Below are positions 1 to 50,698 of a stretch of 64,000 bases of DNA, in pieces (the first letter of the stretch is position 1; the number at the start of each line of letters is the position of its first letter). Made by a program: the position numbers and the translations under genes. The notes beneath the pieces were generated by a model, which saw only the letters and a program-made list of their open reading frames with translations, was not told the DNA's origin and did no database searches. The stretch comes from Martelella alba. Lineage in GTDB: Bacteria; Pseudomonadota; Alphaproteobacteria; Rhizobiales; Rhizobiaceae. Where the stretch lies: assembly GCF_006516955.1 (NCBI RefSeq), contig NZ_VHLG01000004.1, forward strand, positions 186,001-250,000, given 5' to 3'.

Positions 1-1
1 G

Positions 2-1291
2 AGCCAGGATGAAGGCTGGGGCGGCACGGATGAAAGCGATGCGCCATCCGATGACGATGGCTGGCAGCCCGAAACGCCGCAGCGTCATGCTTCGCAGCCA
101 AAATCTGCATCGCGAAATGACGCGGAAGACGACAGCTTCGACAGTGCCTATATGGCCGGGTCGATCCCACTGGCCCCTCCGCCGCCGGCACGCCCTGCCT
201 CAAACGCAGAATGGGACCATGTCGATACCATTCTTGGTCTGGCACCCGGTGGCACCCATCCGGATTTTGACGATCTTGATGACGAAGACGACGACACGCC
301 GTGGCATGATGACGACGAGCCCGGCCGGAGCAAATCCATTCTGCGCCGGATGCTTCTGCCGGTTATTGCCCTGGTTGTCGTGATAGCGCTTGGCATTGGC
401 GGATATTTCGGCTGGATGCACCGCGACCAGCTGCAAAGTCTTGTTGCCAGCGGTGAAGGCACGCCTGCCACCGAAACGGCAGCACCGGCGGCATCAAGCC
501 CTGCCACCTCCGACGATACGCCCACAGTTGCTGCCAGCGAAGGCGGCACGATCGACAAGCCTTATACGCAGCGCCTGCTGCCCGATGGCAACGAGGTTGA
601 TGAGGGGCTGCCCGCAGAAGGCTCAGGCAGCGGCACCACGCAGAGCGTTGCGGCACAGACCACGCCGAGTGCCTCGGCTGTGCCTGAGGGAACGGATACA
701 TCGACGACGCCGGCTCCACCGGTTGGCTCAGCCCAGAAAATGTATCTATATGAAGAACAGCTCGGCCAGTCCGTGCCGTCGGCCTTCCAGGGTACTGTGG
801 AATGGAACCTGAAGCAGCAGAACAACAATACATCGGTCCCTGAACCGGTGATCGAAGGCAAGATGAGCGTTCCTGATGCCAAGCTTTCCGGTACGATCAC
901 CATTCGCCGCAATGATGATCCCTCGCTTCCGGCCAGCCATCTGATCGATATTTCGTTTGATCTTGGCGATGGTTTCGATGGCGGCGCCATCGACAATCTG
1001 CAGCGCATCTCGCTGAAGGAAACCGAAGCAGCCCGTGGTGATCCGCTGGTGGCGGTTTCGGCCAAGATTACCGACAATCTCTATATGGTCGCTCTCAATG
1101 ATTTCGATCAGGCGCGCAACCAGAACCTGACCCTGCTGCAAGACCGTAACTGGATCGACATTCCGGTCACTTACAGAAATGGCCGGCGCGCACTGCTGAC
1201 GCTCGAAAAGGGCACGACCGGTGAAGCGATCTTCGACCGCGCCATTCAGGAATGGCAGGCGCTTGGAGACATCACCAGCGGCAGCAACTGA
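2..1291 (+). CDS. Membrane-anchored acidic protein, 5' truncated by window edge
   Basis: The reading frame is open to base 2, so the true start lies outside the window; an internal ATG at 152 is not needed. The visible part has a charged, Asp-rich N-terminal stretch, one strongly hydrophobic segment encoded at about 350-410 (LLPVIALVVVIALGIGGY, preceded by Arg residues), then an Ala/Thr/Ser/Pro-rich linker at about 440-720, and a folded-looking C-terminal domain of about 185 residues. The layout suggests a single-pass protein with a cytoplasmic acidic tail and a periplasmic C-terminal domain on a flexible linker. I do not recognise the C-terminal domain. A strong terminator follows 50 bp downstream, so this is the last gene of its operon. 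Confidence 0.75.
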   Translation, partial: SQDEGWGGTDESDAPSDDDGWQPETPQRHASQPKSASRNDAEDDSFDSAYMAGSIPLAPPPPARPASNAEWDHVDTILGLAPGGTHPDFDDLDDEDDDTPWHDDDEPGRSKSILRRMLLPVIALVVVIALGIGGYFGWMHRDQLQSLVASGEGTPATETAAPAASSPATSDDTPTVAASEGGTIDKPYTQRLLPDGNEVDEGLPAEGSGSGTTQSVAAQTTPSASAVPEGTDTSTTPAPPVGSAQKMYLYEEQLGQSVPSAFQGTVEWNLKQQNNNTSVPEPVIEGKMSVPDAKLSGTITIRRNDDPSLPASHLIDISFDLGDGFDGGAIDNLQRISLKETEAARGDPLVAVSAKITDNLYMVALNDFDQARNQNLTLLQDRNWIDIPVTYRNGRRALLTLEKGTTGEAIFDRAIQEWQALGDITSGSN

Positions 1292-1341
1292 TCCGCAGGA
1301 GACCACCAGAGGCAGGCCCTCTGACCCTGTCTCATCAATCG

Positions 1342-1367
1342 CCCGCCGGCAATGCCGGCGGGTTTTT
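1342..1367 (+). terminator. Rho-independent terminator
   Basis: Perfect 9-bp GC stem, cccgccggc at 1342-1350 and gccggcggg at 1354-1362, with an AAT loop and a run of five T at 1363-1367. It lies 50 bp after the stop of the left-edge gene and ends that operon. Confidence 0.9.
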
Positions 1368-1568
1368 GCTATCGGCGATGCGCCGGCCTGGATCTCCCGA
1401 TAGGAGCATTTGCGATTCTGCTCTCTATTTGGCATCACGCGGAGCGCAAAACGATGCTTTTGTCCGCCCTGCATTTTCCCTAAGCCTTGATCAGACGCAA
1501 AAACGCTCCGATTTACCCGGTCCGGCACGCCTGCCGGGGCGGACAGAACCTCAATGCGGTAGGGAACC

Positions 1569-2369
1569 ATGGCAAAACGATTTTACTGGAACGAACTGAT
1601 CAGCCGCGAATTTGCAGCGCTCGACCCGAATACGACAATTGCGGTTCTGCCGGTCGCTTCCACCGAACAGCATGGCCCGCACCTTCCCGTTGCGACGGAT
1701 GTGGCGATCGCCCGCGGCATGCTGGATGCGCTTCAGGCGCGCCTGCCGGAAGACCTCGACGTGCTGGTGCTGCCCGTTCAGGAAGTCGGCAAGGCCAATG
1801 AGCATATTTACGGCCCCGGCACCCTGTCTCTGCCGGCAGAATTGCTGATCCAGGCCTGGACCACAATTGGCGAGAAGGTTGCCGCAGCCGGCCTGCGCAA
1901 GATGGTGATCATTAACAGCCATGGCGGCAACCTTGACGTCATGAACATCGTCGCCCGCGAATTGCGCGTGCGCTACCAGATGGCCGTGGTCGCTACGCAA
2001 TGGGGCCGGTTCGGCCATCCGGAAGGCTTGATCAGCGAAGATGAGCGCACTTTCGGCATCCATGGCGGTGAGGTCGAGACATCGCTCATGCTCAAGTTCC
2101 GCCCGGAACTGGTCAGCATGGACCATGCCAAGGATTTCGTTTCGCTTGCCAAGTGGCAGAAGGAAAATACCAAACATCTTCAGCCGACCCCGCCACATAC
2201 GCTTGCCTGGATCGCCCATGACCTGAACCCTGACGGCGCGCTCGGCAATGCTTCGATCGCCACCGTGGAAAAGGGAGAGGCCATCTGCGCCCACCAGATC
2301 ACCGGCGTGATCGAACTGCTTTATGATCTGAAATCCTACCCGCTCGACAAGCTTTACAGCCCGGCCTGA
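1569..2369 (+). CDS. Creatininase-family amidohydrolase
   Basis: 266 residues, the usual length for the creatininase family of metal-dependent amide hydrolases (creatininase, FAPy deformylase ArfB, MftE). Metal-binding signature STEQHGPHLPVATD near residues 31-44 supplies E33, H35 and D44. NSHGGN near residue 120 and HGGEVETS near residue 163 supply further ligands. No signal peptide, so cytoplasmic. The ATG at 1569 follows AGGGAA. It lies upstream of a divergent LysR gene and of a transporter/deaminase/oxidase cassette, and I infer it hydrolyses an amide or cyclic amide in that pathway. Family members act on different substrates, so creatinine itself is not implied. Confidence 0.85.
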   Translation: MAKRFYWNELISREFAALDPNTTIAVLPVASTEQHGPHLPVATDVAIARGMLDALQARLPEDLDVLVLPVQEVGKANEHIYGPGTLSLPAELLIQAWTTIGEKVAAAGLRKMVIINSHGGNLDVMNIVARELRVRYQMAVVATQWGRFGHPEGLISEDERTFGIHGGEVETSLMLKFRPELVSMDHAKDFVSLAKWQKENTKHLQPTPPHTLAWIAHDLNPDGALGNASIATVEKGEAICAHQITGVIELLYDLKSYPLDKLYSPA

Positions 2370-2384
2370 GGCTGGCGAGAGGCT

Positions 2385-3326
2385 TTATTGCGCTGGCGGC
2401 GGCAGATGTTGCTGCTGCTGCAATTCCTCGATCATCGCGACCAGCTCCTGCAAAAGATAATCAACGAAAAGGCTGGTCGCGGCATCAAGTGGTGCCCGCG
2501 ACCGCGAAAACAGTTTCATTGGCTGATGGCGCATATGGGCATCGGCGAGCGGCCGGAAAACCAGCTCGCCGCGCCTGCATTCCGAATAGACATCCAGCGG
2601 ATTGAGGAAGGTCAGCCCTGTTCCCGCCTTCACCAGCAGCTTCAGCATCTCCGAGGCATTGGTTTCCAATACCGGCTCAATCGGCAGCGACAGAGGCGAC
2701 AGCGCAAGATTGATGACATTGCGCAGGCTGGTGCCCGATTGTGCCAGCACCAGCGGCTCCTGCACCACATCCGAAAGATTGACCTTTTCGGCCGACGCCA
2801 GCGGGTGATCCGGCGGCATGACGACGCCGATCGGCACATCAAAGGACGCAAGCGCCCGGATGCCGGGCGTTGCCGGAATGTTGAAGCCGAGCCCGATATC
2901 CACATCGCCGGTCAGCACCATGGCAATCGTCGTCGTTCCACCATCGGAGCGCAGATTGATCCGCACACGCGGATTGTTTCGGATAAAACGGGCAATCACC
3001 TCTGGCAGCGGCCCGGCAGCCAGCCCCACCGTGGTCACCAGCGTCACCTTGCCGGCCTGCGGCATTTTCAGCGCCCTTATCCGGCTTTCCAGCTTTTCAT
3101 AGCTCTTCAGCACTTCGCGGATATGTTCGACGCACATCTCTCCGGCCGCCGTCAGCCGCAATCCGCGCGGCAGGCGTTCAAACAGGGGGGCTCCCAGTTC
3201 TTCCTCCAGCGCAAGGATCTGTCGATTGACCGCAGACGAGGCCACATTCAGCCGCGCCGCCGCCTTTCTGATGGAGCCACAACGGGCGATTTCATCAATA
3301 TATTGCAGTTTTCTGGAATGCAGCAT
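2385..3326 (-). CDS. LysR-family transcriptional regulator
   Basis: 313 residues from the chosen ATG. The N-terminal winged helix-turn-helix (IDEIARCGSIRKAAARLNV, then SSAVNRQILALEEELG, residues about 8-45) is typical LysR; the rest is a two-lobed periplasmic-binding-like effector domain. An in-frame ATG 13 codons upstream (3365) is possible, but the HTH would then sit unusually far in. The gene ends 15 bp from the convergent creatininase-like gene and is divergent from the transporter operon starting at 3502, the classic LysR arrangement for controlling the neighbour in response to its substrate. The 3327-3501 gap should hold its T-N11-A operator; no single site stands out. Confidence 0.9.
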   Translation of the reverse strand: MLHSRKLQYIDEIARCGSIRKAAARLNVASSAVNRQILALEEELGAPLFERLPRGLRLTAAGEMCVEHIREVLKSYEKLESRIRALKMPQAGKVTLVTTVGLAAGPLPEVIARFIRNNPRVRINLRSDGGTTTIAMVLTGDVDIGLGFNIPATPGIRALASFDVPIGVVMPPDHPLASAEKVNLSDVVQEPLVLAQSGTSLRNVINLALSPLSLPIEPVLETNASEMLKLLVKAGTGLTFLNPLDVYSECRRGELVFRPLADAHMRHQPMKLFSRSRAPLDAATSLFVDYLLQELVAMIEELQQQQHLPPPAQ

Positions 3327-3501
3327 GTCAGCACCCGCGACCCTCTTTGGCACGTGTCCGCGCATGCTTAGCGCAATTTCGCGACAGCTGCAAAAAAAGC
3401 ATCGTCTCGCTCGATTTCAGGCACTTCCCAAGACGCACGCAAAACGTTCATATGATTTTGCTGATAATCAATTCCAACAGACAATAACGGGGAACAGCGG
3501 A

Positions 3502-4515
3502 ATGATAAGACATACAAAGGCAGCGGCCCTTTCGGCCACGGCCATTCTCACCCTATTGGCCGCAAGCGCGCCGGCAATGGCGCTCGACAAGGTCAAATTC
3601 GGCACCAACTGGCTCGCCGAAGCCGAACATGGCGGTTACTACCAGGCGGTGGCTGATGGCACCTATGAGAAATACGGCCTTGATGTCGAGATCGTCCAGG
3701 GCGGCCCGCAGGCGGCCAACAGCGCATTGCTGATTGCTGGCAAGATCGACTTCTACATGGGCTCGCCGCAGGGTTCGATCAACGCGATTATCCAAGATAT
3801 TCCGATCATGGACGTTGCCGCGATTTTCCAGAAGGATCCGCAGATCCTGATGGCGCACCCCGATCAGGGCATCGAAAAATTCGAAGATCTCGCCTCGCTG
3901 CCCACTATCCTGATGGGCAAGGACGGCTTTTTATCCTATTTCGAATGGATGAAAGCCAATTTTACGGGCTTCTCCGACAGCCAGTACAAGCCCTACACCT
4001 TCAATCCGGCCCCCTTCATTGCAGACCCGAAGTCGGCCCAGCAGGGCTATCTGACCTCGGAACCCTTCGCTGTCGAACAGCAGGCCGGCTGGACGCCCAA
4101 GGTCTTCCTCTTGGCAGATCAGGGCTATTCGCCCTATTCGGAAACCATAACCGTGCAGAAAAAGCTGGTGGAAGAGAACCCGGATCTCGTCCAGCGCTTC
4201 GTCGACGCGACGATCATCGGCTGGTACAACTATCTCTATCACGACAACAGCGCCGCCAACGCCCTGATCAAGAAAGACAATCCTGACATGACGGACGAGC
4301 AGCTCGCCTATTCGATCGCCAAGATGAAGGAATATGGCCTGGTCGAATCGGGCGATGCCGATGAAGGCGGTATCGGCTGCATGACAGACGCACATTACAA
4401 AAAATTCTACGATGAAATGGCCGCTGTCAGCCTGTTTGAAAGCGGCGTCGAGTTCACCAAGGCCTATACGACCGATTTCGTCTGCAAAAATGTCGGCGCC
4501 GATCTGAAACCGTAA
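3502..4515 (+). CDS. NMT1/THI5-like ABC substrate-binding protein, copy 1
   Basis: 337 residues, with a Sec signal peptide and predicted cleavage after APAMA at residue 27. The mature protein starts LDKVKFGTNWLAEAEHGGYY, typical of the NMT1/THI5-like family (NitT/TauT, ThiY, RibY types). Two late Cys residues (GGIGC and DFVCK) could form a disulfide. The start was chosen at ATG 3502 after ACGGGGAA; the frame is open upstream to 3226, but those codons overlap the LysR coding region and precede the signal peptide. It is very close in sequence to the next gene, so the pair is a tandem duplication. Its partners are the ATPase at 6079 and permease at 6909. A pyrimidine-like ligand is possible but unproven. 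Confidence 0.9.
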   Translation: MIRHTKAAALSATAILTLLAASAPAMALDKVKFGTNWLAEAEHGGYYQAVADGTYEKYGLDVEIVQGGPQAANSALLIAGKIDFYMGSPQGSINAIIQDIPIMDVAAIFQKDPQILMAHPDQGIEKFEDLASLPTILMGKDGFLSYFEWMKANFTGFSDSQYKPYTFNPAPFIADPKSAQQGYLTSEPFAVEQQAGWTPKVFLLADQGYSPYSETITVQKKLVEENPDLVQRFVDATIIGWYNYLYHDNSAANALIKKDNPDMTDEQLAYSIAKMKEYGLVESGDADEGGIGCMTDAHYKKFYDEMAAVSLFESGVEFTKAYTTDFVCKNVGADLKP

Positions 4516-4981
4516 CAGATCGATCACATTTTGCGTGCACTGCCTAAGCGCATGACGACGCGCTGCGACATCGCTATCACGCCCGGCCTCCGGGGCTTCC
4601 ATCTCGCCGGAGCATTTATCCTGACTAAAAATACACGCATTACAGATCATCGACATATGTTTACTTTTCATAGGTTGTATTTTCACCATTCGACTTCAGA
4701 CATACTGTGTTTCTGCTGCGACATCTCAGCACGTAAATGCGGCGATCGGCATAGTTTTCAAAGGAAAATCGGGCTGATACGACCTCAAAGAACCCAGCAA
4801 TTAAGCAGGTGCTGTTCAATTTTTACGCAGAACGAACACAAAAGCTTCATTTTACCAATTGGTGCAAAAAAGAGAGCGATGTGAACGAATTTTGGTGCTT
4901 CTCAAGGCGCAGTCCAGTCGCTCAAATAGACTTTCGGATCGTCAATTTCGTGACACCGTTACAGCGAAGGGGAATAGCTAA
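4516..4981. other. 466-bp intergenic region between the paired binding-protein genes
   Basis: No convincing coding sequence. AT content rises in the second half (about 4610-4870), as expected for a promoter, suggesting the second binding-protein gene and downstream operon have their own start. It contains the perfect 10-bp palindrome ACCAATTGGT at 4854-4863. I looked for TPP-riboswitch signatures because of the THI5-like context and saw none. Confidence 0.5.
4854..4863. promoter_or_regulatory. Palindrome ACCAATTGGT, possible operator
   Basis: A perfect 10-bp dyad in an AT-rich setting 119 bp upstream of the second binding-protein gene. It could be a regulator binding site for the operon from 4982 onward. 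A chance palindrome cannot be excluded. Confidence 0.3.
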
Positions 4982-5998
4982 ATGTCCATTTTTTCGAAAA
5001 CCAGTTTGCTTGGCGCAGCAGCAACCGTTGCCGTAATGGCAGCGGTATCCAGCCCGGCAATGGCGCTCGACAAGGTCAAGTTCGGCACCAACTGGCTCGC
5101 CGAAGCCGAACATGGCGGTTACTACCAGGCCGTTGCCGACGGCACCTATGAAAAATACGGCCTTGATGTCGAGATCGTTCAGGGTGGCCCGCAGGCTGCC
5201 AACAACGCGCTCCTGATCGCCGGCAAGATCGACTTCTTCATGGGCACGCCGCTGACCAATCTGAACGCCGTCGCCGAGGGTATCCCGATCGTCGATGTCG
5301 CCGCGATCTTCCAGAAAAGCCCGGAAATCCTGATGGCCCATCCCGATCAGGGCATCGACAAGTTCGAAGATCTGGCAACGCTTCCGACCATTCTGATGGG
5401 CAAGGACGGCTTCCTGTCCTATTTCGAATGGATGAAGGCCAACTTCGAAGGCTTCTCCGATAGCCAGTACAAGCCCTACACCTTCAACCCGGCCCCCTTC
5501 ATCGCCGATCCGAAGGCTGCCCAGCAGGGTTACCTGACCTCGGAACCCTATGAGATCCAGAAGCAGACCGGCTGGGAGCCGAAGGTCTTCCTTCTCGCCG
5601 ACCAGGGCTACTCGCCCTATGCCGAAACGATCACGGCCCGAACCAAGCTGGTTGATGAAAACCCGGATCTGGTTCAGCGCTTCATCGATGCCTCGCTTGA
5701 GGGCTGGTACAACTACCTCTACGGCGACAACGCCGCTGCCAACGAGCTGATCAAGAAGGACAATCCGGACATGACGGATGGTCAGATCGAATATTCCATC
5801 GCCAAGATGAAGGAATATGGCATCGTTGAATCCGGTGACGCTGACGAAGGCGGCATCGGCTGCCTGACCAAGGCCCATTATGACGGCTTCATCGCTGACA
5901 TGGTCAAGGCCGGCGTTGTCAAGGAAGGCCCGGATTACACCGCAGCCTACGATACGGACTTCGTCTGCAAGAAGGTCGGTATGGACCTGAAGAAGTAA
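4982..5998 (+). CDS. NMT1/THI5-like ABC substrate-binding protein, copy 2
   Basis: 338 residues with a Sec signal peptide ending SSPAMA at residue 28. The mature part is nearly collinear with the product of 3502: the first 45 or so mature residues are essentially identical. The differences cluster in stretches such as GTPLTNLNAVAEG here against GSPQGSINAIIQD in copy 1, which lie where the ligand cleft is expected. The start follows a strong AAGGGGA site. It is followed at 6079 by the ATPase and then the permease, so this copy is physically linked to the rest of the transporter, while copy 1 is 466 bp upstream behind a probable promoter. Confidence 0.9.
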   Translation: MSIFSKTSLLGAAATVAVMAAVSSPAMALDKVKFGTNWLAEAEHGGYYQAVADGTYEKYGLDVEIVQGGPQAANNALLIAGKIDFFMGTPLTNLNAVAEGIPIVDVAAIFQKSPEILMAHPDQGIDKFEDLATLPTILMGKDGFLSYFEWMKANFEGFSDSQYKPYTFNPAPFIADPKAAQQGYLTSEPYEIQKQTGWEPKVFLLADQGYSPYAETITARTKLVDENPDLVQRFIDASLEGWYNYLYGDNAAANELIKKDNPDMTDGQIEYSIAKMKEYGIVESGDADEGGIGCLTKAHYDGFIADMVKAGVVKEGPDYTAAYDTDFVCKKVGMDLKK

Positions 5999-6078
5999 TT
6001 CTTCCCATCTGAACGCCGCTGGCCCGCACCATATTGCGGGCCGGCTCCAGCAACGCCCAAGAAACCGGATCGAAGCGA

Positions 6079-6909
6079 ATGTCGCAAACAGGCGCCGCAC
6101 TTGCGGATACTACTCCTCCATCGCTCGCCAAACCGCTGGTCAAGATGGAGCATGTGAGCAAGGTTTTCTCCAACGGAACGCTCGCTCTCAACGATATGTC
6201 GCTCACCGTGGAACGCGGTCAGTTCATCAGCCTTCTCGGTCCCTCGGGCTGCGGCAAGTCAACGGCGCTGCGCATCATGTCGGCACTCGGCGATATCACA
6301 ACGGGCACGATCGACTGGCCGAGCTCGCGCATTTCCTCCAAGGGCCGTCCTGAAGGCGATATCAGCTTTGTCTTCCAGGAACCGACGCTGATGCCGTGGA
6401 AGACGGTGTTCGGCAATGTCTATCTGCCGCTGAAGCTGCGCGGCATCACCAAGGCTGCCGCAGCACCGGAAATCGAAAAGGTCTTGAAGACCGTCGGTCT
6501 GCAGGACTTTGCCGATGCCTATCCGCGTGAACTGTCCGGCGGCATGAAAATGCGCGTCTCCATCGCCCGTGCGCTTGTGACCAAGCCCAAGCTGCTGCTG
6601 ATGGATGAGCCCTTTGCCGCCCTTGATGAAATCACCCGCCAGCGCCTCAATGACGACGTGCTGAAACTGTGGCGCGAGACCGGCATCACGGTCATCTTCG
6701 TGACCCATTCCGTTTTCGAATCCGCTTATCTTTCCAGCCGCATCGTTGTCATGCGCGCGCGCCCCGGCCAGGTTTTTGACGACTTCCCGCTCGTCACCAG
6801 CGCCGAGCGCGACGAAGACTATCGTACCTCGGAAGAATATCGCGCCGCCTGCGAGAAGGTTTCACACTCGCTGCAGGGCGCCATCCAGGCAGCCGGAGGA
6901 CAACACTGA
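6079..6909 (+). CDS. ABC transporter ATP-binding protein (NitT/TauT type)
   Basis: 276 residues from ATG 6079, preceded by GAAG; an upstream in-frame TTG at 6034 lacks a good ribosome site. Walker A GPSGCGKS at residues 54-61, Q-loop in FVFQEPTLMPW, signature LSGGMKMR near 152, Walker B LLLMDEP near 172 and H-loop VTHSVFES near 209 are intact, so the ATPase should be active. The closest family is the SsuB/TauB/NrtD group that pairs with NMT1-like binding proteins. The stop overlaps the permease start (TGATG), indicating translational coupling. Confidence 0.92.
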   Translation: MSQTGAALADTTPPSLAKPLVKMEHVSKVFSNGTLALNDMSLTVERGQFISLLGPSGCGKSTALRIMSALGDITTGTIDWPSSRISSKGRPEGDISFVFQEPTLMPWKTVFGNVYLPLKLRGITKAAAAPEIEKVLKTVGLQDFADAYPRELSGGMKMRVSIARALVTKPKLLLMDEPFAALDEITRQRLNDDVLKLWRETGITVIFVTHSVFESAYLSSRIVVMRARPGQVFDDFPLVTSAERDEDYRTSEEYRAACEKVSHSLQGAIQAAGGQH

Positions 6910-7754
6910 TGAGCGATCAAGCCATTGAAGCCGTCAACATGCGGCCACAGCAGACTTTCTTCACCAAGAACAAGGATATGATCCTGCAGATCGGCATTCC
7001 GGTTCTGGTTATCTTGTTCCTCGTCTTCGTCTGGCAGATGATCGTTATCATCTATCAGACGCCGCCCTATATCCTGCCGGGCCCGACGCTGGTCGCCGAA
7101 GCCTTCGTGCGGGACTGGGGCATTCTGGCTCCGGCACTGTGGGTCACCACCAAGATCACCTTCATCTCGCTGTTCCTCGCCCTTGTCGGCGGTGTCGGCC
7201 TCGCCGTGATCATGGTCCAGTCACGCTGGCTGGAGCTGGCGCTCTACCCGATCACCGTCATCCTGCAGGTCACGCCGATCGTGGCGATCGCACCGCTGAT
7301 CCTGATCTATACGCCGACCACCCAGGTCGCGCTTCTGATCTGCGCCTTCCTCGTCGCCTTCTTCCCGATCCTGTCCAATATGGCGCAGGGCCTGAAGAGC
7401 GTCGATCACAACCTCATCAATATGTTCGAACTCTACGGCGCCTCACGCTGGCAGACGCTCATTCATCTGAAGCTCCCGGCCTCGCTGCCCTATTTCATGA
7501 CCGGTCTTCGGATTGGTGGCGGCCTTGCCCTGATTGCGGCTGTCGTTGCGGAATTTGCCGCCGGCTCTGCAGGCGCGGGCTCGGGCCTTGCCTTCCGCTT
7601 GCTGGAGGCACAGTTCCGCCTTAACATTCCGCGTCTCTTTGCAGCGCTGATCATGCTCGGCATGCTGGGTGTCGCAATCTTCGCGCTCACCTCCTTCATC
7701 GCCTGGCTCAGCCTGCATCGCTGGCATGAGAGCAGCATCAAGCGGGAAAACTGA
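6909..7754 (+). CDS. ABC transporter permease (NitT/TauT type)
   Basis: 281 residues with about six hydrophobic segments. The first, IGIPVLVILFLVFVWQMIVI, starts near residue 30. The EAA loop appears as ELYGASRWQTLIHLKLPASLPYF near residue 180, the contact site for the ATPase. It overlaps the ATPase stop by one base and is itself overlapped by the start of the amidohydrolase gene (TGATG), so transport and metabolism are translated together. One permease gene presumably forms a homodimer and could be served by both binding proteins. Confidence 0.9.
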   Translation: MSDQAIEAVNMRPQQTFFTKNKDMILQIGIPVLVILFLVFVWQMIVIIYQTPPYILPGPTLVAEAFVRDWGILAPALWVTTKITFISLFLALVGGVGLAVIMVQSRWLELALYPITVILQVTPIVAIAPLILIYTPTTQVALLICAFLVAFFPILSNMAQGLKSVDHNLINMFELYGASRWQTLIHLKLPASLPYFMTGLRIGGGLALIAAVVAEFAAGSAGAGSGLAFRLLEAQFRLNIPRLFAALIMLGMLGVAIFALTSFIAWLSLHRWHESSIKREN

Positions 7755-9067
7755 TGTCCATGAATTTCGTCGAACTTCCTTCAGCGCGTCGTTTCGCGCT
7801 GAAGCATTGCACATTGCCGAAAATTGCCGTGAATGGTGCCGATGACTTCACGGCCCGCGAAGGTCTGATCAAGGCTGATCTCATCATCGCCGATGGCAGG
7901 ATCGAACAGATCCTGCCCTATGGCGCAGCTGATGCCGGACTTCCCGCAGCCGATCTGCGCGACGGCATGGTCTGGCCCTGCTTTGCCGAACTCCACACCC
8001 ATATCGACAAGGGCCATATCTGGGAGCGCCGCCGCAATCCCGATGGCACCTTCATGGGCGCGCTGGAAAATGTGAAACTCGACCGCGAGGCCAACTGGTC
8101 GGCGGACGATGTGGCCGCGCGCATGGAATTCTCGCTGAAGACGGCCTATGCCCACGGCACCGCCCTTCTGCGTACCCATCTCGACAGCCTGCCGCCGCAG
8201 CACCGCATCTCCTTCGAGGTCTTCTCCGCGATGCGCGAGAAATGGAAGGGCAGGATCGAGCTTCAGGCGGTCGCGCTTTTCTCCACCGAGATGATCTTCG
8301 AGCCATTTTTTGACGACCTCGTTCAGGTGATCCGCACACATGGCGGCCTGCTTGGCGGCGTCACCATGATGCTGCCCGATCTCGACGCCCAGCTCGACAA
8401 GATGTTCCGCACCGCAAGCGATAACGGTTTCGATATCGACCTTCATGTCGACGAGACCGAAGAACGCGAAGTGCTGACGCTGAAAAAGATCGCCGAAGCC
8501 AAGATCCGCAACGGCTATGAAGGCAAGGTCACGGTTGGCCATTGCTGCTCGCTGGCGCGCCAGGATGAGGAAACGGCGAAACGCACCATTGATGTGGTCG
8601 CCAAAGCCGGTCTTTCAGTCGTCTCGCTGCCGATGTGCAACATGTATCTGCAGGACCGGCACCCGGGCCGCACACCACGCTGGCGCGGCGTCACCCTGTT
8701 CAAGGAACTGACCGCCGCCGGTGTTCCAACCTGCGTTTCCTCCGACAATACCCGCGACCCCTTTTACGCCTATGGCGATCTCGACGGTGTCGAAGTCGTT
8801 CGTGAGGCGGTTCGCATTCTTCAACTCGACCACCCTCTCGATGAGGCCGCGCGCATCATGACCCGCACGCCGGCCGAAATCATGGGGGTTGCCGACCGCG
8901 GCGTGATCGCCGAAGGCGGCCCCGCCGATCTCGTCTTGTTCAGCGCCCGGCGCTGGAGCGAGTTTCTGTCCCGTCCGCAGGCTGACCGCATCGTGATGCG
9001 GAATGGCATGGGCATCGACCGCAGCCTGCCGGATTATCGCGAACTTGACCCGCTCATGGATGAGTGA
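7754..9067 (+). CDS. Cytosine-deaminase-like amidohydrolase
   Basis: 437 residues, amidohydrolase superfamily, closest by motif to bacterial cytosine/isoguanine deaminases (CodA-like). The metal and catalytic set is present: H81 and H83 in LHTHIDKGH, H231 in DLHVDETEE (with the acidic pair that orients the substrate), H263 in VGHCC and D331 in SSDNTRDP. No signal peptide. It is translationally coupled to the permease before it and overlaps the oxidase after it. It probably deaminates or ring-opens an imported N-heterocycle. Cytosine deaminase is the nearest name, but its place with a creatininase-like hydrolase and an FAD oxidase argues for a different or modified substrate. Confidence 0.85.
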   Translation: MSMNFVELPSARRFALKHCTLPKIAVNGADDFTAREGLIKADLIIADGRIEQILPYGAADAGLPAADLRDGMVWPCFAELHTHIDKGHIWERRRNPDGTFMGALENVKLDREANWSADDVAARMEFSLKTAYAHGTALLRTHLDSLPPQHRISFEVFSAMREKWKGRIELQAVALFSTEMIFEPFFDDLVQVIRTHGGLLGGVTMMLPDLDAQLDKMFRTASDNGFDIDLHVDETEEREVLTLKKIAEAKIRNGYEGKVTVGHCCSLARQDEETAKRTIDVVAKAGLSVVSLPMCNMYLQDRHPGRTPRWRGVTLFKELTAAGVPTCVSSDNTRDPFYAYGDLDGVEVVREAVRILQLDHPLDEAARIMTRTPAEIMGVADRGVIAEGGPADLVLFSARRWSEFLSRPQADRIVMRNGMGIDRSLPDYRELDPLMDE

Positions 9068-9069
9068 AC

Positions 9070-10479
9070 ATGACTGACTATCAGCAGATCAAGGCCGAAC
9101 TTGAAGGCATTGCCATCGAAGACAATCCCGCAATGGTTCTGCGCAAGAGCCGGGACTTCTACTGGTATTCGCCGATCCTCAAGGCCCAGCTCGAAAATGT
9201 GACCGGTGACCTGATCATCTCGCCGGAAAATGAAGACGAACTGATCAAGGTGCTGAAGGTTGCCTTCAAGCATGACGCGCCCGTGACCGCGCGTGGCGGC
9301 GGTACCGGCAATTACGGCCAGTCCATGCCGCTGTCCGGCGGCATCGTGCTCGACATGACCAAAATGAACCGGATCAAGCTGATCGAGCCTGGCCGCGTCA
9401 TTGCAGAACCCGGCATCATCTGCGCCGAGCTTGATCGCCAGACCAAGGCCCATTCCGGCCAGGAACTGCGGTTTCACCCCTCCACCACCGGTCAGGCTAC
9501 CCTCGGCGGCTTCATCGCCGGTGGTTCGGGCGGCGTCGGCTCGGTTCACTGGGGCGGTCTGCGTGACCTCGGCAATGTGCTGCGTCTCAGGATCGTCACA
9601 CTGGAAGCCGAACCGCGGGTGATGGAGCTGACCTCGCTTGATCTGCTCAAGGTCTCCCATGCCTATGGCACCAACGGCATCATCACCGAAGTGGAAATGC
9701 CGCTGGCACCTGCCTATGAATGGGTGGATGTGATCGTCGGCCATGACAGCTTCATGGATGCCGTGCGCTTCTCCGATCATCTGGCAAGCTCTACCGGCAT
9801 TCTCACCAAGGAAATCGCGCCGATCGCGGCACCGGTTCCCTATAGCTACTTCACCCGGCTGAAGCCTTTCCTCGAAGAAGGCGAATCGATCTCGGTCGTC
9901 ATGGTAGCACCGCATTCGATCGAGCCGTTCAAGGCGCTGGTCGAGGTTCATGGCGGCACGATCCGCTACCGTTCCGATACGGCTGAGAACACCAAGGGCG
10001 TGCCGCGCGCCTATGAGCTTGGCTGGAACCACACGACGCTGCGCGCGATGAAGATGGAGCCTGACAACTTCACCTATCTTCAGGTTCAGTATCCGAGCCC
10101 CGGCCATGTCGCCAAGGTTCAGGAAATGTGCGAAATCTTCGGCGACGAGGTAATCGGCCATCTGGAATTCCTGCGTTTTGATGGCGCAATCCAGTGCTCG
10201 GGCCTGCCGCTGGTGCGCTACACCACGCCGGAGCGCCTGGAAGAGATCATCCGTATTCACGAAGAAAACGGCTGCCCGGTCTTCAATCCGCACCGCTACA
10301 CGCTGGAAGAAGGCGGCATGAAGCAGACAGATGAGCGTCAGCTGGAATTCAAGAAGGAAACCGATCCGAAGGGTCTGCTGAACCCCGGCAAGATGATTGC
10401 CTGGGACGACCCGGAATTCGATTTCAAGGCCGGCAAGAACTACCTGTTCAAGGGTATCACCGCCGTTACCGGAGAATAG
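9070..10479 (+). CDS. FAD-linked oxidase (GlcD-like / vanillyl-alcohol-oxidase fold)
   Basis: 469 residues from ATG 9070. A GTG at 9064 overlapping the previous stop (GTGA) is an alternative that adds two residues. The FAD-binding PCMH-type domain is clear: ARGGGTGNYGQSMPLSGG near residue 78 and HPSTTGQATLGGFIAGGSGG near residue 140. The C-terminal half is the cap domain, ending in DPKGLLNPGKM, the usual end of GlcD-type oxidases. It probably oxidises a hydroxyl or amine carbon of the imported compound, passing electrons to oxygen or a quinone. The neighbouring flavodoxin-fold protein may be a redox partner. Confidence 0.88.
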   Translation: MTDYQQIKAELEGIAIEDNPAMVLRKSRDFYWYSPILKAQLENVTGDLIISPENEDELIKVLKVAFKHDAPVTARGGGTGNYGQSMPLSGGIVLDMTKMNRIKLIEPGRVIAEPGIICAELDRQTKAHSGQELRFHPSTTGQATLGGFIAGGSGGVGSVHWGGLRDLGNVLRLRIVTLEAEPRVMELTSLDLLKVSHAYGTNGIITEVEMPLAPAYEWVDVIVGHDSFMDAVRFSDHLASSTGILTKEIAPIAAPVPYSYFTRLKPFLEEGESISVVMVAPHSIEPFKALVEVHGGTIRYRSDTAENTKGVPRAYELGWNHTTLRAMKMEPDNFTYLQVQYPSPGHVAKVQEMCEIFGDEVIGHLEFLRFDGAIQCSGLPLVRYTTPERLEEIIRIHEENGCPVFNPHRYTLEEGGMKQTDERQLEFKKETDPKGLLNPGKMIAWDDPEFDFKAGKNYLFKGITAVTGE

Positions 10480-10480
10480 C

Positions 10481-11062
10481 ATGCGCGTTCTAGTCCTCTT
10501 TTCGCATCCGGTGGAGACCAGCTACGGCGCGGCTCTCCACCGCCAGGTGGTCGAAAGCCTGACGGCGGCCGGCCATGAGGTCGATGATTGCGATCTTTAT
10601 GCCGAAAATTTCTCGCCGGTTCTGACCCGTGAGGAGCGGATGGGCTATCACACCTATCCGGAAAACACCGAACCAGTGAAAGGTTATGTCGAGCGGCTGA
10701 AGGCGGCGGAAGCGCTTGTCATCTGCACGCCGATCTGGAATTTCGGCTTCCCGGCGATTCTCAAAGGTTATTTCGACCGCGTCTGGCTGCCGGGTGTCAA
10801 CTTCTCGATCGAAAACGGCAAGGTGCAGCCGTCGCTACGCCATATCCGCAAGATCGCCGCTGTCTTCACCTATGGCGGCGACCGCAAGCGGGCCTTTCTC
10901 GCTGGTGATCCGCCGCGGAAGCTGTTCATGCGGGCGATCCGCGTTCAGGTGAAGCTTGGTGCGCCGGCGAAGTTCCTCGCCCATTACGATATGAACAACT
11001 GCACACCGGAAACACGGGCGAAATTCCTCGCCAAGGTGAAGCGGGAAATGGAAGCTTTCTGA
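10481..11062 (+). CDS. Flavodoxin-fold NAD(P)H dehydrogenase (quinone) family protein
   Basis: 193 residues starting one base after the oxidase stop. It opens MRVLVLFSHPVETSYGAAL, the flavin-phosphate loop of the Flavodoxin_2 family (NQO1, MdaB, KefF). TPIWNFGFPAILKGYFDRV near residue 85 is the second family signature. The enzyme should carry FMN or FAD and reduce quinones or a conjugated substrate with NAD(P)H in the cytoplasm. It is the last gene of the operon, followed by a 13-bp stem-loop, and probably supplies a reductive step or recycles the electron acceptor of the upstream oxidase. Confidence 0.85.
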   Translation: MRVLVLFSHPVETSYGAALHRQVVESLTAAGHEVDDCDLYAENFSPVLTREERMGYHTYPENTEPVKGYVERLKAAEALVICTPIWNFGFPAILKGYFDRVWLPGVNFSIENGKVQPSLRHIRKIAAVFTYGGDRKRAFLAGDPPRKLFMRAIRVQVKLGAPAKFLAHYDMNNCTPETRAKFLAKVKREMEAF

Positions 11063-11115
11063 TAGTTTTCTTGCGCCCGCCCTTTACAAAGCGGGTCATC
11101 TGACTAGGTCTTAAA

Positions 11116-11150
11116 GAGGCCCTGCCGTCATCAAACCACGGCAGGGCCTC
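11116..11150 (+). terminator. Long stem-loop terminator or attenuator
   Basis: Perfect 13-bp stem, 11116-11128 (gaggccctgccgt) with 11138-11150 (acggcagggcctc), and a 9-base loop. A short T/A tail follows on each side. It ends the transporter/deaminase operon and lies 37 bp before the fructosidase start, so it could also act as an attenuator for that gene. Confidence 0.75.
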
Positions 11151-11187
11151 TTGAACGTTTGTGGGAGGGGAGACGGAAAGGAAGAGA

Positions 11188-12891
11188 ATGGCCGATCAGT
11201 TCATCGTCGACGAAAGCCGGTTGCGGAAACTCCGCGGCCATGTCCCCGTCAATGCCGTGCTTCACGTCTGGCTCAAGGCGACACAGCCGCATGCGGCGGC
11301 CGAGCTTCGCCTCGCTCTCAATGACCGGATTTTCGGCAATGTCTTCGTCGAAAATGCCGAGGAATATGAATTCCGAATGTTCTTCATGCCCCATGGCGGC
11401 GAGCTGGAATGTGCCTATGATCCCGAAACCACGACGATTTCGGTCGCCTACTGGTTCACCGATGCCTCGGTGCTTGAGGAAGGCATCACGGTTTTGCGCA
11501 CCCATGCCGCCAATGCACCGGCGCCTGCCCCCGGCAGCTATCATTTCCGTCCGCCCTTCGGCTGGATGAATGATCCGAACGGATTTGGCCGCTTCAACGG
11601 CTCGGCTCACCTGTTCTACCAGCATTACTCCCATGGCCTCACATGGAACACCATGCATTGGGGTCACGCCATTTCCGAGGACTTTCTCCACTGGCGGCAT
11701 CTGCCGATTTTCCTGTTTCCGTCAGAAGACCTGACCCACCGGCCGGACCGGCGCGGCGGCGCCTTTTCCGGCTCGGCCATTCCACTCGAAGACAGCGCCG
11801 GTATTCGCGTCTTCTTTACCGAACATGTCATCGAACGCGCGCCCGAACGCGAAATCCAGATGATGGCGACCTCACAATCGCTGATCTTCGCCGGCGCGGC
11901 AAAGCTTCTGATCGGCGAGCGGCCGGCGGACCAGAACCTGACCCAGGATTTCCGCGATCCTTATGTGTTCCGCGGGCCCGATGGCTACTGGAAGATGCTG
12001 CTCGGCAGCCGCAGCGGCGAAGCCGGTGTCGTGCTGCTCTACGAAACCGCCGATGTCACTGCGGCGTCAGGCTGGGAATTTGTCTCAATTCTGCATTCCG
12101 ACAGCCGCTTCAATACCCAGGTGATCGAATGTCCCTGCCTGCTGCCGCTTGACGGCCCTGCGGGTGATCCGGCAACCCACTGGGTGCTGATTGCCGGTCT
12201 GATGCACAGCCATGACGCGGTGACGGGGCGCAAAAACCTGACCTCTGCCACTGTCGGCCATTTCGATGGCAAGCAATTCACGCCGGACTTCGAACAGGAA
12301 CTGGATTTCATCGCCGACAATTATGCCTTCCAGGCCTTTCTCGATCACGGAACGCCGGTCGGCATTGGCTGGCTTGCCAACTGGGCCGATGCCCGCCCGG
12401 AAATCGATTTCCCGACGGCCATGACGCTGCCGCGCAATATCGTCTACGAGGACGGTGTGCTGAAAACACCGCCGATCGCTGGCGTCGAAGCCTTGCGCGC
12501 CGCACTGGTCGACGAGAGCGCTCTCGCCAGCGGCGAAGCGGTGGAGCTGGAACAGGGGCAGGCAGAGATCATCATCACGCTCCATGACGACGACGCGCCC
12601 TTCGAGCTTGATCTCTACCACCACAATCTGGAAATCATTCTCCGGCTTGACGGTGATGGCCTGCGCCTCACCTATCACGACGACACGCATCAGCCGAAGC
12701 CAGACTATGTCGCCCCCGGCGCCAGGCCGCGCGAACTGCGTATTTTCCTTGATATCGGGTCAATCGAGATCTTCGCCGATAATGGCCGCTGGACCGGAAC
12801 CAAGCGCATTGCCGGCTTCGACCCCGTCCATTCACTCAGGATCCGCGAGGGCAATATTGCCTCGGCAAAGATCTGGACGCTGGCACTATGA
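11188..12891 (+). CDS. Glycoside hydrolase family 32 beta-fructosidase
   Basis: 567 residues. Start chosen at ATG 11188 with GGAAGAGA immediately upstream rather than the in-frame GTG at 11161. GH32 catalytic residues are visible: nucleophile D129 in WMNDPNG, transition-state stabiliser D257 in FRDP, acid/base E314 in IECP, plus FSGSAI. It should cleave terminal beta-fructosyl bonds of sucrose, levan or inulin. There is no signal peptide, so it is intracellular. About 110 residues before the first catalytic motif form an extra N-terminal domain; the C-terminal 140 residues are the usual beta-sandwich (LDIGSIEIFADNG). No sugar transporter or regulator for it lies beside it. Confidence 0.92.
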   Translation: MADQFIVDESRLRKLRGHVPVNAVLHVWLKATQPHAAAELRLALNDRIFGNVFVENAEEYEFRMFFMPHGGELECAYDPETTTISVAYWFTDASVLEEGITVLRTHAANAPAPAPGSYHFRPPFGWMNDPNGFGRFNGSAHLFYQHYSHGLTWNTMHWGHAISEDFLHWRHLPIFLFPSEDLTHRPDRRGGAFSGSAIPLEDSAGIRVFFTEHVIERAPEREIQMMATSQSLIFAGAAKLLIGERPADQNLTQDFRDPYVFRGPDGYWKMLLGSRSGEAGVVLLYETADVTAASGWEFVSILHSDSRFNTQVIECPCLLPLDGPAGDPATHWVLIAGLMHSHDAVTGRKNLTSATVGHFDGKQFTPDFEQELDFIADNYAFQAFLDHGTPVGIGWLANWADARPEIDFPTAMTLPRNIVYEDGVLKTPPIAGVEALRAALVDESALASGEAVELEQGQAEIIITLHDDDAPFELDLYHHNLEIILRLDGDGLRLTYHDDTHQPKPDYVAPGARPRELRIFLDIGSIEIFADNGRWTGTKRIAGFDPVHSLRIREGNIASAKIWTLAL

Positions 12892-12895
12892 TGAA

Positions 12896-13050
12896 AAGGC
12901 GCCCTAAGGGGCGCCTCAGGCTGCTGAAAAACCTCGCCACCTTTTCTGGCGTCATGCCTGTGCTGGTCACAGGCATCCAGCCGGCGCGCGTCCGCGCGGC
13001 GAAAGAACTTTTCTATTCAATGCCTTATGAATCTGGATCCCCGTGACGAG
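12896..13050. repeat. Palindromic intergenic repeat, copy 1, left half
   Basis: Left part of a mosaic palindromic repeat split by the insertion sequence. It holds a terminal hairpin (ggcgccctaaggggcgcc), the hairpin atgcctgtg (12954-12962) / cacaggcat (12968-12976), the block catccagccg, and the left arm gatccccgtg of a second hairpin ending at the insertion point. The same blocks occur in the same order at 20136-20297. On the minus strand the outer hairpin ends in four T and could terminate leftward transcripts. Confidence 0.85.
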
Positions 13051-14280
13051 TGTACGGCCTTGATACATACCTGACAGATGTTCGGAGACATGCCTGACAC
13101 TTCTCGGATTGCAATCTGGGAGGTTCGGATGGGGTGGGAGACGAAGTCTTTGGTGGATCAGCGGTTGGAGTTTTGCCGGCTTTGTGCGCTTGAGGGCGCG
13201 AATGTTTCGCAATTGTGCCGACGTTTCGGGATTTCTCGCCAGACGGGCTATGTCTGGCTGAAGCGTTTCAGGGCCTGCGAGGGGATGCAGGATCGCTCGC
13301 GGCGGCCGCATGCCAGTCCGCGGCGCACCGATCAGGCGCTTGAACAGGCTGTGCTTGAGGTGCGCGATGCGCATCCGGCCTGGGGCGCCCGCAAGATTGC
13401 GTGCCGGCTGGAACGAGCGGGGATCGATCCGCCGGCGGCGTCGACAGTCCATGCCATCCTGGTCCGACACAAGCGGATCGCAACGCCTGAGGGCGCCGGC
13501 CCGGCCTATGGACGTTTCGAGCGCGAAGCGCCAAACCTGCTGTGGCAGATGGACTTCAAGGGACGTTTTCAGCTCGTCTCGGGAGACTGGTGTCATCCGC
13601 TCACCGTCCTCGATGATCATTCGCGGTTTGCCCTCGGGCTTGAGGCCTGCGCCGACGAACGGATGATGACGGTTCGCAGACGGCTGGAACGCATCTTTCA
13701 TCACCACGGGCTGCCGATGGCAATCTATACCGACAATGGAAACCCTTGGGGAACCGGCGTTCCGCACGGCTGGACACGCTTGCGCGTCTGGCTCCTCAAG
13801 CTGGGGATAGAGCTCATTCACGCCCGCCCCTACCATCCACAGGGACGCGGCAAGAACGAACGCTTCCACCGCAGTTTCAAGGCTGAAGTTCTCGCCTTTC
13901 AACCGTTGTCAGACTTCAGGCAGGCGCAAAGGGCGTTTGATCGCTGGCGTGAACTCTATAACCATCATCGGCCGCATCAGGGCATCGCCATGGCCGTGCC
14001 CGCAAGCCGCTACAGCCCGTCGCCCCGAAGCTTTCCCGCCACTGTTCCCGAGCCCGTCTATGATCCAGGCGAAATCGTCAGGCGGGTCAGCAGCACAAAG
14101 GCCTATGTCGCATTCAACGGCAAGGCATGGCGTGTGCCGAAGGCCTTTCAAGGGGAAACCCTTGCCATCAGGCCCCTCGAAATCGACGGCCAACATGGCG
14201 TGTTCTTCGCAGCAAACCAGGTCGCCCTAATCGACCTCAACAAAGACGAATAACTGTCAGGCATGTCTCCGGGCTTTACA
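13051..14280 (+). mobile_element. IS481-family insertion sequence, complete
   Basis: 1230 bp bounded by 5-bp target duplications ACGAG at 13046-13050 and 14281-14285. Both ends begin TGTA reading inward. A 17-bp inner inverted repeat, cggagacatgcctgaca, lies at 13083-13099 and as its complement at 14255-14271; the left end carries 20-odd extra bases outside it. A single intact transposase gene fills the element. Family assignment rests on the transposase. Outer ends were set by comparing with the uninterrupted repeat copy at 20284-20306, which lacks the element. Confidence 0.9.
13129..14253 (+). CDS. IS481-family transposase
   Basis: 374 residues from ATG 13129, preceded by GGGAGG; an upstream in-frame ATG at 13078 lies in the inverted-repeat zone and is less likely. 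The N-terminal helix-turn-helix (VSQLCRRFGISRQTGYVWLK) and a DDE integrase core are present: D142 in WQMDFKG, D202 in YTDNGNP and E244 in GKNERFHRSFKAEV. The frame is uninterrupted, so the enzyme is probably functional. It ends just inside the right inverted repeat. Confidence 0.93.
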   Translation: MGWETKSLVDQRLEFCRLCALEGANVSQLCRRFGISRQTGYVWLKRFRACEGMQDRSRRPHASPRRTDQALEQAVLEVRDAHPAWGARKIACRLERAGIDPPAASTVHAILVRHKRIATPEGAGPAYGRFEREAPNLLWQMDFKGRFQLVSGDWCHPLTVLDDHSRFALGLEACADERMMTVRRRLERIFHHHGLPMAIYTDNGNPWGTGVPHGWTRLRVWLLKLGIELIHARPYHPQGRGKNERFHRSFKAEVLAFQPLSDFRQAQRAFDRWRELYNHHRPHQGIAMAVPASRYSPSPRSFPATVPEPVYDPGEIVRRVSSTKAYVAFNGKAWRVPKAFQGETLAIRPLEIDGQHGVFFAANQVALIDLNKDE

Positions 14281-14285
14281 ACGAG

Positions 14286-14388
14286 CACGGGGATGACGAC
14301 GGAGGGGGCGGCCATTCCACCCCGAACAGGCAATCTGAACGACTTTGTCAGCAGGCTGAGACGCCCGAAGCGGCGCCTCATCAGTTCC
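14286..14388. repeat. Palindromic intergenic repeat, copy 1, right half
   Basis: Continuation of the repeat after the insertion. It begins cacggggatgacgacgga, the right arm of the hairpin whose left arm is at 13036-13045, and ends with cagcaggctgagacgcc, which pairs roughly with caggctgctg at 12917-12926. It matches 20298-20397 block for block. It ends at the stop of the RidA-like gene. Confidence 0.8.
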
Positions 14389-14390
14389 GT

Positions 14391-14780
14391 TCAAAGCACC
14401 TTTGCCGCTGTGACTTCCACTTCGACGAGGAATTCTGCACGGGTAAAGCCGCCGACAACCAGCAGGGTCGAGACCGGCAGGGGATCAGACGTATAGCGGT
14501 CGCGCACTTCCATATAGGCCGGAAAATCCTCACGCATGGTGACATAGCCATTGATGCGGATGACATCGGCAAAGCTCATGCCGCCTTCTTCCAGGATCTT
14601 GCGGATCGTCTCGAAGCACAATTCGGCCTGACCCGTAACTGTACGCGGGATCACATCATCCGGCCCGATGCCGAGCTGCCCGGAGGTGACCAGCAGTGAT
14701 GCGCCTGGCGGCACGTAAAGGCCATGGCTGTAATGGCCGAAAGGTTGGCGCACGCCGGGCGGGTTGATGCTCTTTTTCAT
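14391..14780 (-). CDS. RidA-family (YjgF/YER057c/UK114) protein
   Basis: 129 residues from ATG 14780 with GGAGG seven bases upstream; the frame is open further upstream without a ribosome site. It carries the RidA fold hallmarks: the N-terminal FGHYSHGLYVPPGASLLVTSGQLG stretch, aromatic and glycine positions, and a C-terminal FLVEVEVTA. RidA deaminates reactive enamine/imine intermediates, but many relatives act in specific catabolic pathways. The conserved catalytic Arg of true RidA proteins (in an IR.QT context) is not seen where expected; the segment reads PVSTLLVVGGFTRAEFLVEV. It is therefore more likely a pathway paralogue. It lies downstream of the aldehyde dehydrogenase gene on the same strand. 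Confidence 0.8.
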   Translation of the reverse strand: MKKSINPPGVRQPFGHYSHGLYVPPGASLLVTSGQLGIGPDDVIPRTVTGQAELCFETIRKILEEGGMSFADVIRINGYVTMREDFPAYMEVRDRYTSDPLPVSTLLVVGGFTRAEFLVEVEVTAAKVL

Positions 14781-14968
14781 CAGGATTGCCTCCGAAGCCA
14801 GCACATCGCCGATGAAGCCTGACGGCCGTCTTCGGAAAACAATGTGCAATCTCACGATGTTGTTGCGGCCCATATGCACCCGACCGGGCGATATGGGCAG
14901 CCTTTATGTCAGTCACGCATGGCCGGGATGGCCGCTGCTGTCAAGCTTTTCCCACACCCTGCCGGGCC

Positions 14969-16396: not shown

Positions 16397-16460
16397 GGAG
16401 TGCTCCCTCAATATCACGATGCGGGCCTGATGCCCGGCCTTCATGCGCCGCTTGAAAACC

Positions 16461-17153
16461 TCAGCCTTCCGGATTTTCCGGAAGCTGCCAGTCGATCGGC
16501 TCCATGCCATTCTTTTCCAGAAACGCGTTGGCCTTGGAAAAGTGCCGGCAGCCGAAGAAGCCATTATGCGCGGAAAGTGGCGAAGGATGTGGCGCTGTCA
16601 GCACCAGATGGCGATTGCGGTCGACAAAGGCCGCCTTCTTCTGTGCATAGGCGCCCCACAGGATGAAGACCACATGCGGGCATTCCTCGTTGACGATGCG
16701 GATCACCTGATCGGTAAACTGTTCCCAGCCGCGTCCGCGATGTGAGGCGGCCTGCGCCTGCTCGACCGTCAGAACGCTGTTGAGCATCAGGACGCCCTGA
16801 CGCGCCCAGTGTTCAAGAAAGCCATGGCGCACCGGTTTGAAGCCGATATCACTCGCCAGTTCCTTGTAGATATTGACCAGCGACGGCGGCGTGCGCACGC
16901 CGGGCTTGACCGAAAAGCAGAGCCCATGAGCCTGCCCCGGCCCGTGATAGGGATCCTGTCCGAGAATGACGACACGGACATTTTCAAGCGGCGTCAGATC
17001 GAGCGCGCGAAAATATTCGGACCCTTTGGGAAAAATATGCTTGCCAGCCTGTTTTTCCGCCGTCAAAAAAGCGCGCAGCGATTGCATATAGGGACTGGAA
17101 AATTCACCGGAAAGCCGCGTTTTCCAGCCTTCTTCAAGCCTGACCTCGCTCAA
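16461..17153 (-). CDS. ung: Uracil-DNA glycosylase (family 1)
   Basis: Removes uracil from DNA at the start of base-excision repair. The water-activating motif GQDPYHG, the minor-groove loop HPSPLSAH and the conserved stretch [11 protein letters not shown] are all present, so this is a canonical family 1 enzyme of about 230 residues. I place the start at TTG 17153 because a perfect GGGAGG lies six bases upstream and the product then begins [11 protein letters not shown], a sensible N terminus. A GTG at 17174 in the same frame would put that ribosome site inside the gene. It shares a 240-bp divergent region with the transporter operon at 17393. Confidence 0.93.
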
Positions 17154-50589: not shown

Positions 50590-50624
50590 TCTGTTTCCTC
50601 CCCGGATAGCCCTGTTCGTCAATA

Positions 50625-50664
50625 TCAAAAGAAACGGCGGCTGCGACTATAGCGCAACCGCCGT
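50625..50664 (-). terminator. Rho-independent terminator after leuC
   Basis: On the minus strand ACGGCGG-x-TGCG pairs with CGCA-x-CCGCCGT (50664-50653 with 50645-50634, one mismatch), followed by TTTCTTTT. It separates leuC from pcaD. Confidence 0.78.
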
Positions 50665-50698
50665 ATCCGTTAAGTCCTTTCGAACGAAGCCGGAGCCA

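Follow-up and report, generated by a model that had tools for sequence, protein, structure and literature searches.

We have identified a conserved gene cassette in Martelella alba that probably serves the uptake and the oxidative and hydrolytic breakdown of a pterin, most likely a breakdown product of folate (vitamin B9). The cassette lies at positions 1569-11062 of the window, by which we mean the whole 64,000-nucleotide stretch of DNA that was analysed (contig NZ_VHLG01000004.1, positions 186,001 to 250,000; assembly GCF_006516955.1), and has one displaced member beyond that range. Its gene content, its conservation as a unit, the homology of its flavin adenine dinucleotide (FAD) enzyme to Protein Data Bank (PDB) entry 6v42 and its intact active-site motifs were computed here, and "pterin/folate catabolic cassette" is the best current name for it. 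Bacterial breakdown of the pterin ring of folate is largely an open question, to which the cassette brings a concrete set of about nine genes.

The proposed sequence of events is as follows. An NMT1/THI5-like binding protein, together with an ATPase and a permease, would import a pterin ring compound. A CodA-like amidohydrolase would then strip the amino group from the ring, converting a pterin to the lumazine type, and the FAD enzyme, by homology to 6v42, would oxygenate or oxidise the ring with electrons that a flavodoxin-fold NAD(P)H oxidoreductase may feed to it. A creatininase-family enzyme would hydrolyse a cyclic amide and open the ring, and a Rid-family protein may process a nitrogen-containing intermediate by chemistry that dispenses with the usual arginine.

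Gene layout and conservation of the cassette

The genes assigned to the locus are given below by position, strand and description.

1569..2369, plus strand: creatininase-family hydrolase (PF02633, 234 bits)
2385..3365, minus strand: LysR-type regulator (PF00126, PF03466), divergent from the binding-protein gene
3502..4515, plus strand: NMT1/THI5-like binding protein 1 (PF09084), translated from the ATG at 3502
4982..5998, plus strand: NMT1/THI5-like binding protein 2, tandem copy (PF09084)
6079..6909, plus strand: ATP-binding cassette (ABC) transporter ATPase (PF00005), start codon picked within the open reading frame 6034-6909
6909..7754, plus strand: ABC transporter permease (PF00528)
7754..9067, plus strand: CodA-like amidohydrolase (NF005759, 660.6 bits; cut-off 403)
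9064..10479, plus strand: FAD enzyme of the vanillyl-alcohol oxidase (VAO) type, GlcD-type (PF01565), relative of 6v42
10481..11062, plus strand: flavodoxin-fold NAD(P)H oxidoreductase (PF02525, 107 bits)
14391..14780, minus strand: Rid-family (L-PSP) protein, displaced member (PF01042, 67 bits)

A first-pass annotation of this DNA had described an uncharacterised cassette for an N-heterocycle, and the families that it named at 1569-11062 were all present in Pfam and NCBIfam matches. Its statement that the genes from the ATPase on overlap or lie one base apart was likewise confirmed by the coordinates: the permease gene begins on the last base of the ATPase gene (6909), the amidohydrolase gene begins on the last base of the permease gene (7754), the FAD gene overlaps the amidohydrolase gene by four bases (9064/9067), and the flavodoxin-fold gene begins at 10481, the FAD gene stop being at 10479. 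The creatininase-family gene points towards the LysR gene in convergent orientation, so that it does not form a single transcription unit with the genes for transport and the other enzymes.

Conservation was surveyed across the order in 297 genomes, in which FAD places were collected using the FAD paralogue encoded elsewhere in the same M. alba genome as a query. This search returned 101 places with E <= 1e-130 in 100 genomes, along with 36 weaker places (41-46% identity). Amidohydrolases scoring over the cut-off of NF005759 were present in 108 of the 297 genomes, and 111 places entered the adjacency count. At 95 of the 101 close FAD places such an amidohydrolase gene lay within 300 bp of the FAD gene; conversely, 95 of the 111 amidohydrolase places were paired with one of the 101 FAD genes and 16 were unpaired. 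The check that the first-pass annotation had proposed, namely whether the genes travel together, was thus positive for the core. Within the genus of the window, 12 of 13 genomes carry the FAD gene at E <= 1e-100, and the product of the window gene is 99% identical to its counterpart in Martelella sp. HB161492. Divergent forms of the cassette occur in Rhodobacterales, Burkholderiales and Enterobacterales.

Gene content was then compared in 20 named loci that searches with the FAD protein had returned, a set that leaves out the distant loci L056 and L057 and includes several contigs that are cut short. The amidohydrolase was present in all 20, the flavodoxin-fold protein in 17, and the creatininase-family and Rid proteins in 15 each; the ATPase and the permease were each found in 18 of the 20, the binding protein in 17 and the LysR regulator in four. 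Fifteen plasmid loci (L085 being left out, one of the 15 lacking annotation, and members being counted by similarity to the window proteins) held the binding protein in 15/15, the creatininase-family protein and the amidohydrolase in 14/15 each, Rid in 11/15 and the flavodoxin-fold protein in 9/15. The loci from a class-wide search, mostly more distant, gave 12/17 for the binding protein, 11/17 for the amidohydrolase, 10/17 for the creatininase family, 9/17 for the flavodoxin-fold protein and 6/17 for Rid. The gene set is a real, conserved cassette that is common within the order; the LysR gene is not a constant member of it, and the Rid-family gene belongs to it. The earlier gene list stands for the core; it included a regulator found in 4/20 named loci and overlooked the Rid gene at 14391-14780. 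A cassette near the Rhizobiaceae type (FAD protein, 77%) was also seen in a bin labelled Arenimonas (L053), reflecting either horizontal transfer or a mis-binned contig.

The FAD enzyme and PDB entry 6v42

The folate connection comes from the FAD enzyme. Using phmmer, the protein matched 6v42 over residues 7-466 with 670 bits, the next PDB sequence scoring 64 bits. An AlphaFold2 model of the protein (mean predicted local distance difference test, pLDDT, of 69.7) was searched with Foldseek, in which 6v42 ranked first with an E-value of 2.1e-50 and approximately 62% identity, and the next entry had an E-value of 5.5e-17. The title of the entry is "Crystal structure of the flavin oxygenase with cofactor bound involved in folate catabolism". 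The FAD enzyme is a relative of 6v42 and, by this homology, a predicted oxygenase. Others have thus already worked on at least one cassette enzyme, and the description of the cassette as uncharacterised was only partly right, although 6v42/6v43 cover one enzyme of the set only.

A maximum likelihood tree was built from the 59 FAD sequences yielded by gene calling, five loci having been left out by hand. The window enzyme and 6v42 share one clade of 37 rows (support 100/99), within which 6v42 clusters (100/99) with seven Mesorhizobium enzymes. Each of the seven Mesorhizobium loci has creatininase-family, Rid, transporter, amidohydrolase and flavodoxin-fold genes, and because 6v42 groups with these full cassettes, its own gene is probably located in a comparable one. 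The window enzyme and 6v42 share a clade in which the cassettes are similar, which argues for a common class of substrate. The 37-row clade also contains the FAD paralogue from the same genome.

The partner of the FAD enzyme varies among lineages. On plasmids of Klebsiella, Pantoea and Rahnella, the cassette combines FAD, amidohydrolase, creatininase-family, Rid and transporter genes with one for a PDR/VanB reductase, and its annotation shows no flavodoxin-fold gene; a Comamonadaceae plasmid cassette is of the flavodoxin-fold type. The same FAD enzyme is thus accompanied by either of two unrelated reductases, which suggests that it requires an electron donor.

Transport proteins and hydrolytic enzymes

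Binding proteins 1 and 2 are a tandem duplication and are 80% identical over 315 residues. The folds closest to the model of binding protein 2 (mean pLDDT 80.8) were 3ix1, a formylaminopyrimidine binder, 4nmy, which is thiamin-bound, and Thi5; PqqT, which binds pyrroloquinoline quinone, ranked 31st. The matches to the ThiY/thiamin-type structures 3ix1 and 4nmy had E-values of 5e-17 and 3e-16 at ~20% identity. The modelled fold fits a flat, aminopyrimidine-like ligand without identifying one. In a pterin, an aminopyrimidine ring is fused to a pyrazine ring, and the suggestion in the first-pass annotation of an N-heterocycle such as an aminopyrimidine was therefore close; uptake and breakdown of such a ring are well supported, with the pterin ring now favoured as the substrate.

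The amidohydrolase scores over the cut-off of NF005759, a model labelled cytosine deaminase, and is 26% identical to Escherichia coli CodA. Residues H81, H83, H231, E234, H263 and D331 align with the metal and catalytic residues of CodA and are kept. Two pocket positions are changed, from Asp to Asn (N332) and from Trp to Phe (F337), the Asp and Trp of CodA being residues of its cytosine pocket. With both changed, plain cytosine deamination was demoted, and it is doubtful that the label "cytosine deaminase" names the right substrate. We propose instead that the amidohydrolase may be a pterin deaminase. The pterin deaminases Arad3529 and that of Variovorax sp. F1 belong, like the cassette enzyme, to the amidohydrolase superfamily.

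According to You et al. 2022 (PMC9513972), Variovorax sp. F1 has a pterin deaminase that acts on both folic acid and pteroic acid, "endoribonuclease" genes lie downstream of predicted pterin deaminase genes in V. paradoxus, and folate breakdown was followed to deaminopteroate, the later fate being left open; the parts of the text that were read mention no such cassette. In some cassettes an L-PSP/Rid gene directly follows the cassette-type amidohydrolase gene (Klebsiella, Pantoea, Rahnella, L160, L162 and L163; not L161 or L090), an order that the described V. paradoxus arrangement (PMC9513972) resembles. This likeness in gene order may be taken as a lead, not a test, for pterin chemistry. When the Pantoea amidohydrolase was used as a query, matches were found in 4 of 398 genomes.

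The creatininase-family protein reached 90.4 bits against the true-creatininase model TIGR04448 (cut-off 235) and 100 bits against the MftE model (cut-off 172), falling short of both, and had a weak match of 28 bits (cut-off 180) to the model of ArfB, a hydrolase acting on a formylamino-pyrimidine. The creatininase label is accordingly not borne out. The family motifs are common to the window protein and five other cassette members, and a ring-opening hydrolase is proposed as its likely role.

In the alignment, the Rid protein has a Ser at the position of the Arg in E. coli RidA and RutC, and all 55 Rid hit rows, of which 51 are distinct and one is the window protein, have the same Ser. The catalytic Arg of E. 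coli RidA is Arg105. Since this residue is replaced, RidA-type imine hydrolysis is not to be assumed, and this candidate function, first suggested by analogy with the Rut pathway, was dropped. The labels "cytosine deaminase", "creatininase" and "RidA" on cassette genes may mislead.

A fuller claim, held tentatively and at rather less than an even chance, is that the cassette might encode the later steps, so far missing, of folate mineralisation by bacteria. These would comprise import of the pterin, its deamination, flavin-dependent oxidation of the ring and ring opening by a creatininase-type enzyme, with the non-canonical, arginine-free Rid protein in a catalytic role.

Substrate alternatives and neighbouring genes

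Several observations weigh against assigning the cassette to pterins, or to folate in particular. The link to folate depends on the title of a PDB entry, which is the depositors' statement, and no paper on 6v42 was found; our literature searches returned none that we recognised as describing the cassette or 6v42. Three loci of the 37-row clade (L060, L067 and L069) have only amidohydrolase, FAD and flavodoxin-fold genes with a distant ATPase gene. None of the 36 weaker FAD places has an over-cut-off amidohydrolase within 300 bp, which makes the overall count 95/137. The link to the proven pterin deaminases is a lead taken from gene order, and the Rid protein is without the catalytic Arg. Pfam and NCBIfam scans of the cassette proteins revealed no carboxypeptidase G, and folate seems large for a binding site of the ThiY kind; on these two grounds import of whole folate appears less likely, and we prefer a pterin fragment as the imported molecule.

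The genome contains a second cassette (L058; G000:C53:62000-81000) with creatininase-family, amidohydrolase (36%), FAD (50%), flavodoxin-fold and transporter genes. It is flanked by two FolD-type genes; the whole genome has three FolD matches above the cut-off, and these are two of them. The binding protein of L058 is present in 3 of the 13 genomes of the genus, its own included, and both FolD-type genes adjoin it in the other two. FolD fits folate chemistry and could equally serve one-carbon units derived from N-methyl groups; the FolD-flanked paralogue supports folate only ambiguously. Also to be set against folate are the position of FolD beside the paralogue only, no called gene in the other loci compared having matched the L058 FolD proteins, and a Nitratireductor relative of the paralogue with no match to these FolD-type proteins. 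FolD was consequently demoted as proof of folate. A putative binding protein of 385 residues, also encoded in L058, matched no Pfam family at E 1e-5.

The best-surviving alternative, which we consider unlikely, is catabolism of a simple pyrimidine such as hydroxymethylpyrimidine (HMP), formylaminopyrimidine or a cytosine derivative, by import, deamination and Rut-style oxidative ring opening. The closeness of the binding-protein fold to formylaminopyrimidine and thiamin binders and to Thi5 would suit it, as would the amidohydrolase score, which exceeds the cut-off of NF005759 with its cytosine deaminase label. In outline, the cassette resembles the Rut pathway of E. coli in what would be a flavin enzyme with its reductase, C-N hydrolases and a Rid-family protein, and variant FAD/creatininase loci (L102, L103 and L108) have isochorismatase-like genes, of which the one in L108 encodes a protein that is RutB/BiuH-like by model, below the cut-off. 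However, the cassette Rid protein differs in lacking the Arg of RutC, two CodA pocket residues differ, and 6v42, the close relative of the FAD enzyme, is filed under folate catabolism. Neither a RutA-family mono-oxygenase nor a RutB-family hydrolase was among the Pfam and NCBIfam matches for the ten window proteins scanned.

Less probable again is a general module that opens lactam-type N-heterocycles oxidatively and whose members each have their own substrate, in which case the window copy may act on an N-methylated heterocycle or on a flavin or purine breakdown product. Such breadth would be consistent with the PDR/VanB reductase variants of Enterobacterales, with a 2-oxoglutarate-dependent dioxygenase gene near the cassette in Agrobacterium F2 and Klebsiella, with the AtzE-type amidase of L103, and with at least two FAD copies in several genomes. 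It would also suit the neighbours of L168, a cassette related to the paralogue on a plasmid of Nitratireductor sp. OM-1, which include a Rieske-type ring-hydroxylating dioxygenase, hydantoinase B and ureidoglycolate lyase. Against it stands the clade that the window enzyme shares with 6v42 and in which the cassettes are similar, although the paralogue falls there too. A creatininase-family enzyme acting first on creatinine or hydantoins, as sources of nitrogen, is very improbable. The PF02633 fold with its motifs kept would speak for it, but it was rejected as the principal explanation, since the protein scores 90 bits against a creatininase cut-off of 235 and this use would leave the FAD enzyme and 6v42 unexplained.

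Directly after the cassette lie two further genes that separate it from the Rid gene.

11161-12891: glycoside hydrolase family 32 (GH32) gene, fructan/sucrose hydrolase-type, directly after the cassette
13078-14253: IS481-like transposase gene (rve and LZ_Tnp_IS481 in Pfam), between the GH32 and Rid genes

In L036, a 99% relative, the gap between the GH32 and Rid genes is only ~260 bp, so the IS481-like insertion in the window looks recent. The GH32 gene adjoins the cassette here and in the Martelella loci L036-L038, with no similarity match in the other named loci.

Several loci have additional neighbours. Cupin-like genes are present in L103 and L108, and the Nitratireductor locus L168 also has a Rid gene, a ferredoxin-type protein and a glutamine synthetase-family gene. 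In L153 and in L078 (Rhizobium etli CIAT 652 pC), transporter, two DUF1989, urea carboxylase and allophanate hydrolase genes abut the creatininase-family gene; the guanidine/urea-type operon of R. etli was considered as a hint of guanidine release and, being one locus, was not used. Downstream of the cassette of Mesorhizobium erdmanii and on the opposite strand (L041:12622-19647) are a homocysteine methyltransferase-like gene and genes for two large proteins, the one tested being FAD plus GcvT-like; these are one-carbon neighbours.

A scan of positions 1-17000 of the window against Rfam gave no match up to E 1. The promoter scan found 0 sites (3.2 in shuffled sequences), and terminator-like sites numbered 10, compared with 9.8 in shuffles. 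Elsewhere in the window, at 48535-52108 on the minus strand, lyase, alpha/beta-hydrolase and aconitase-family genes lie in series.

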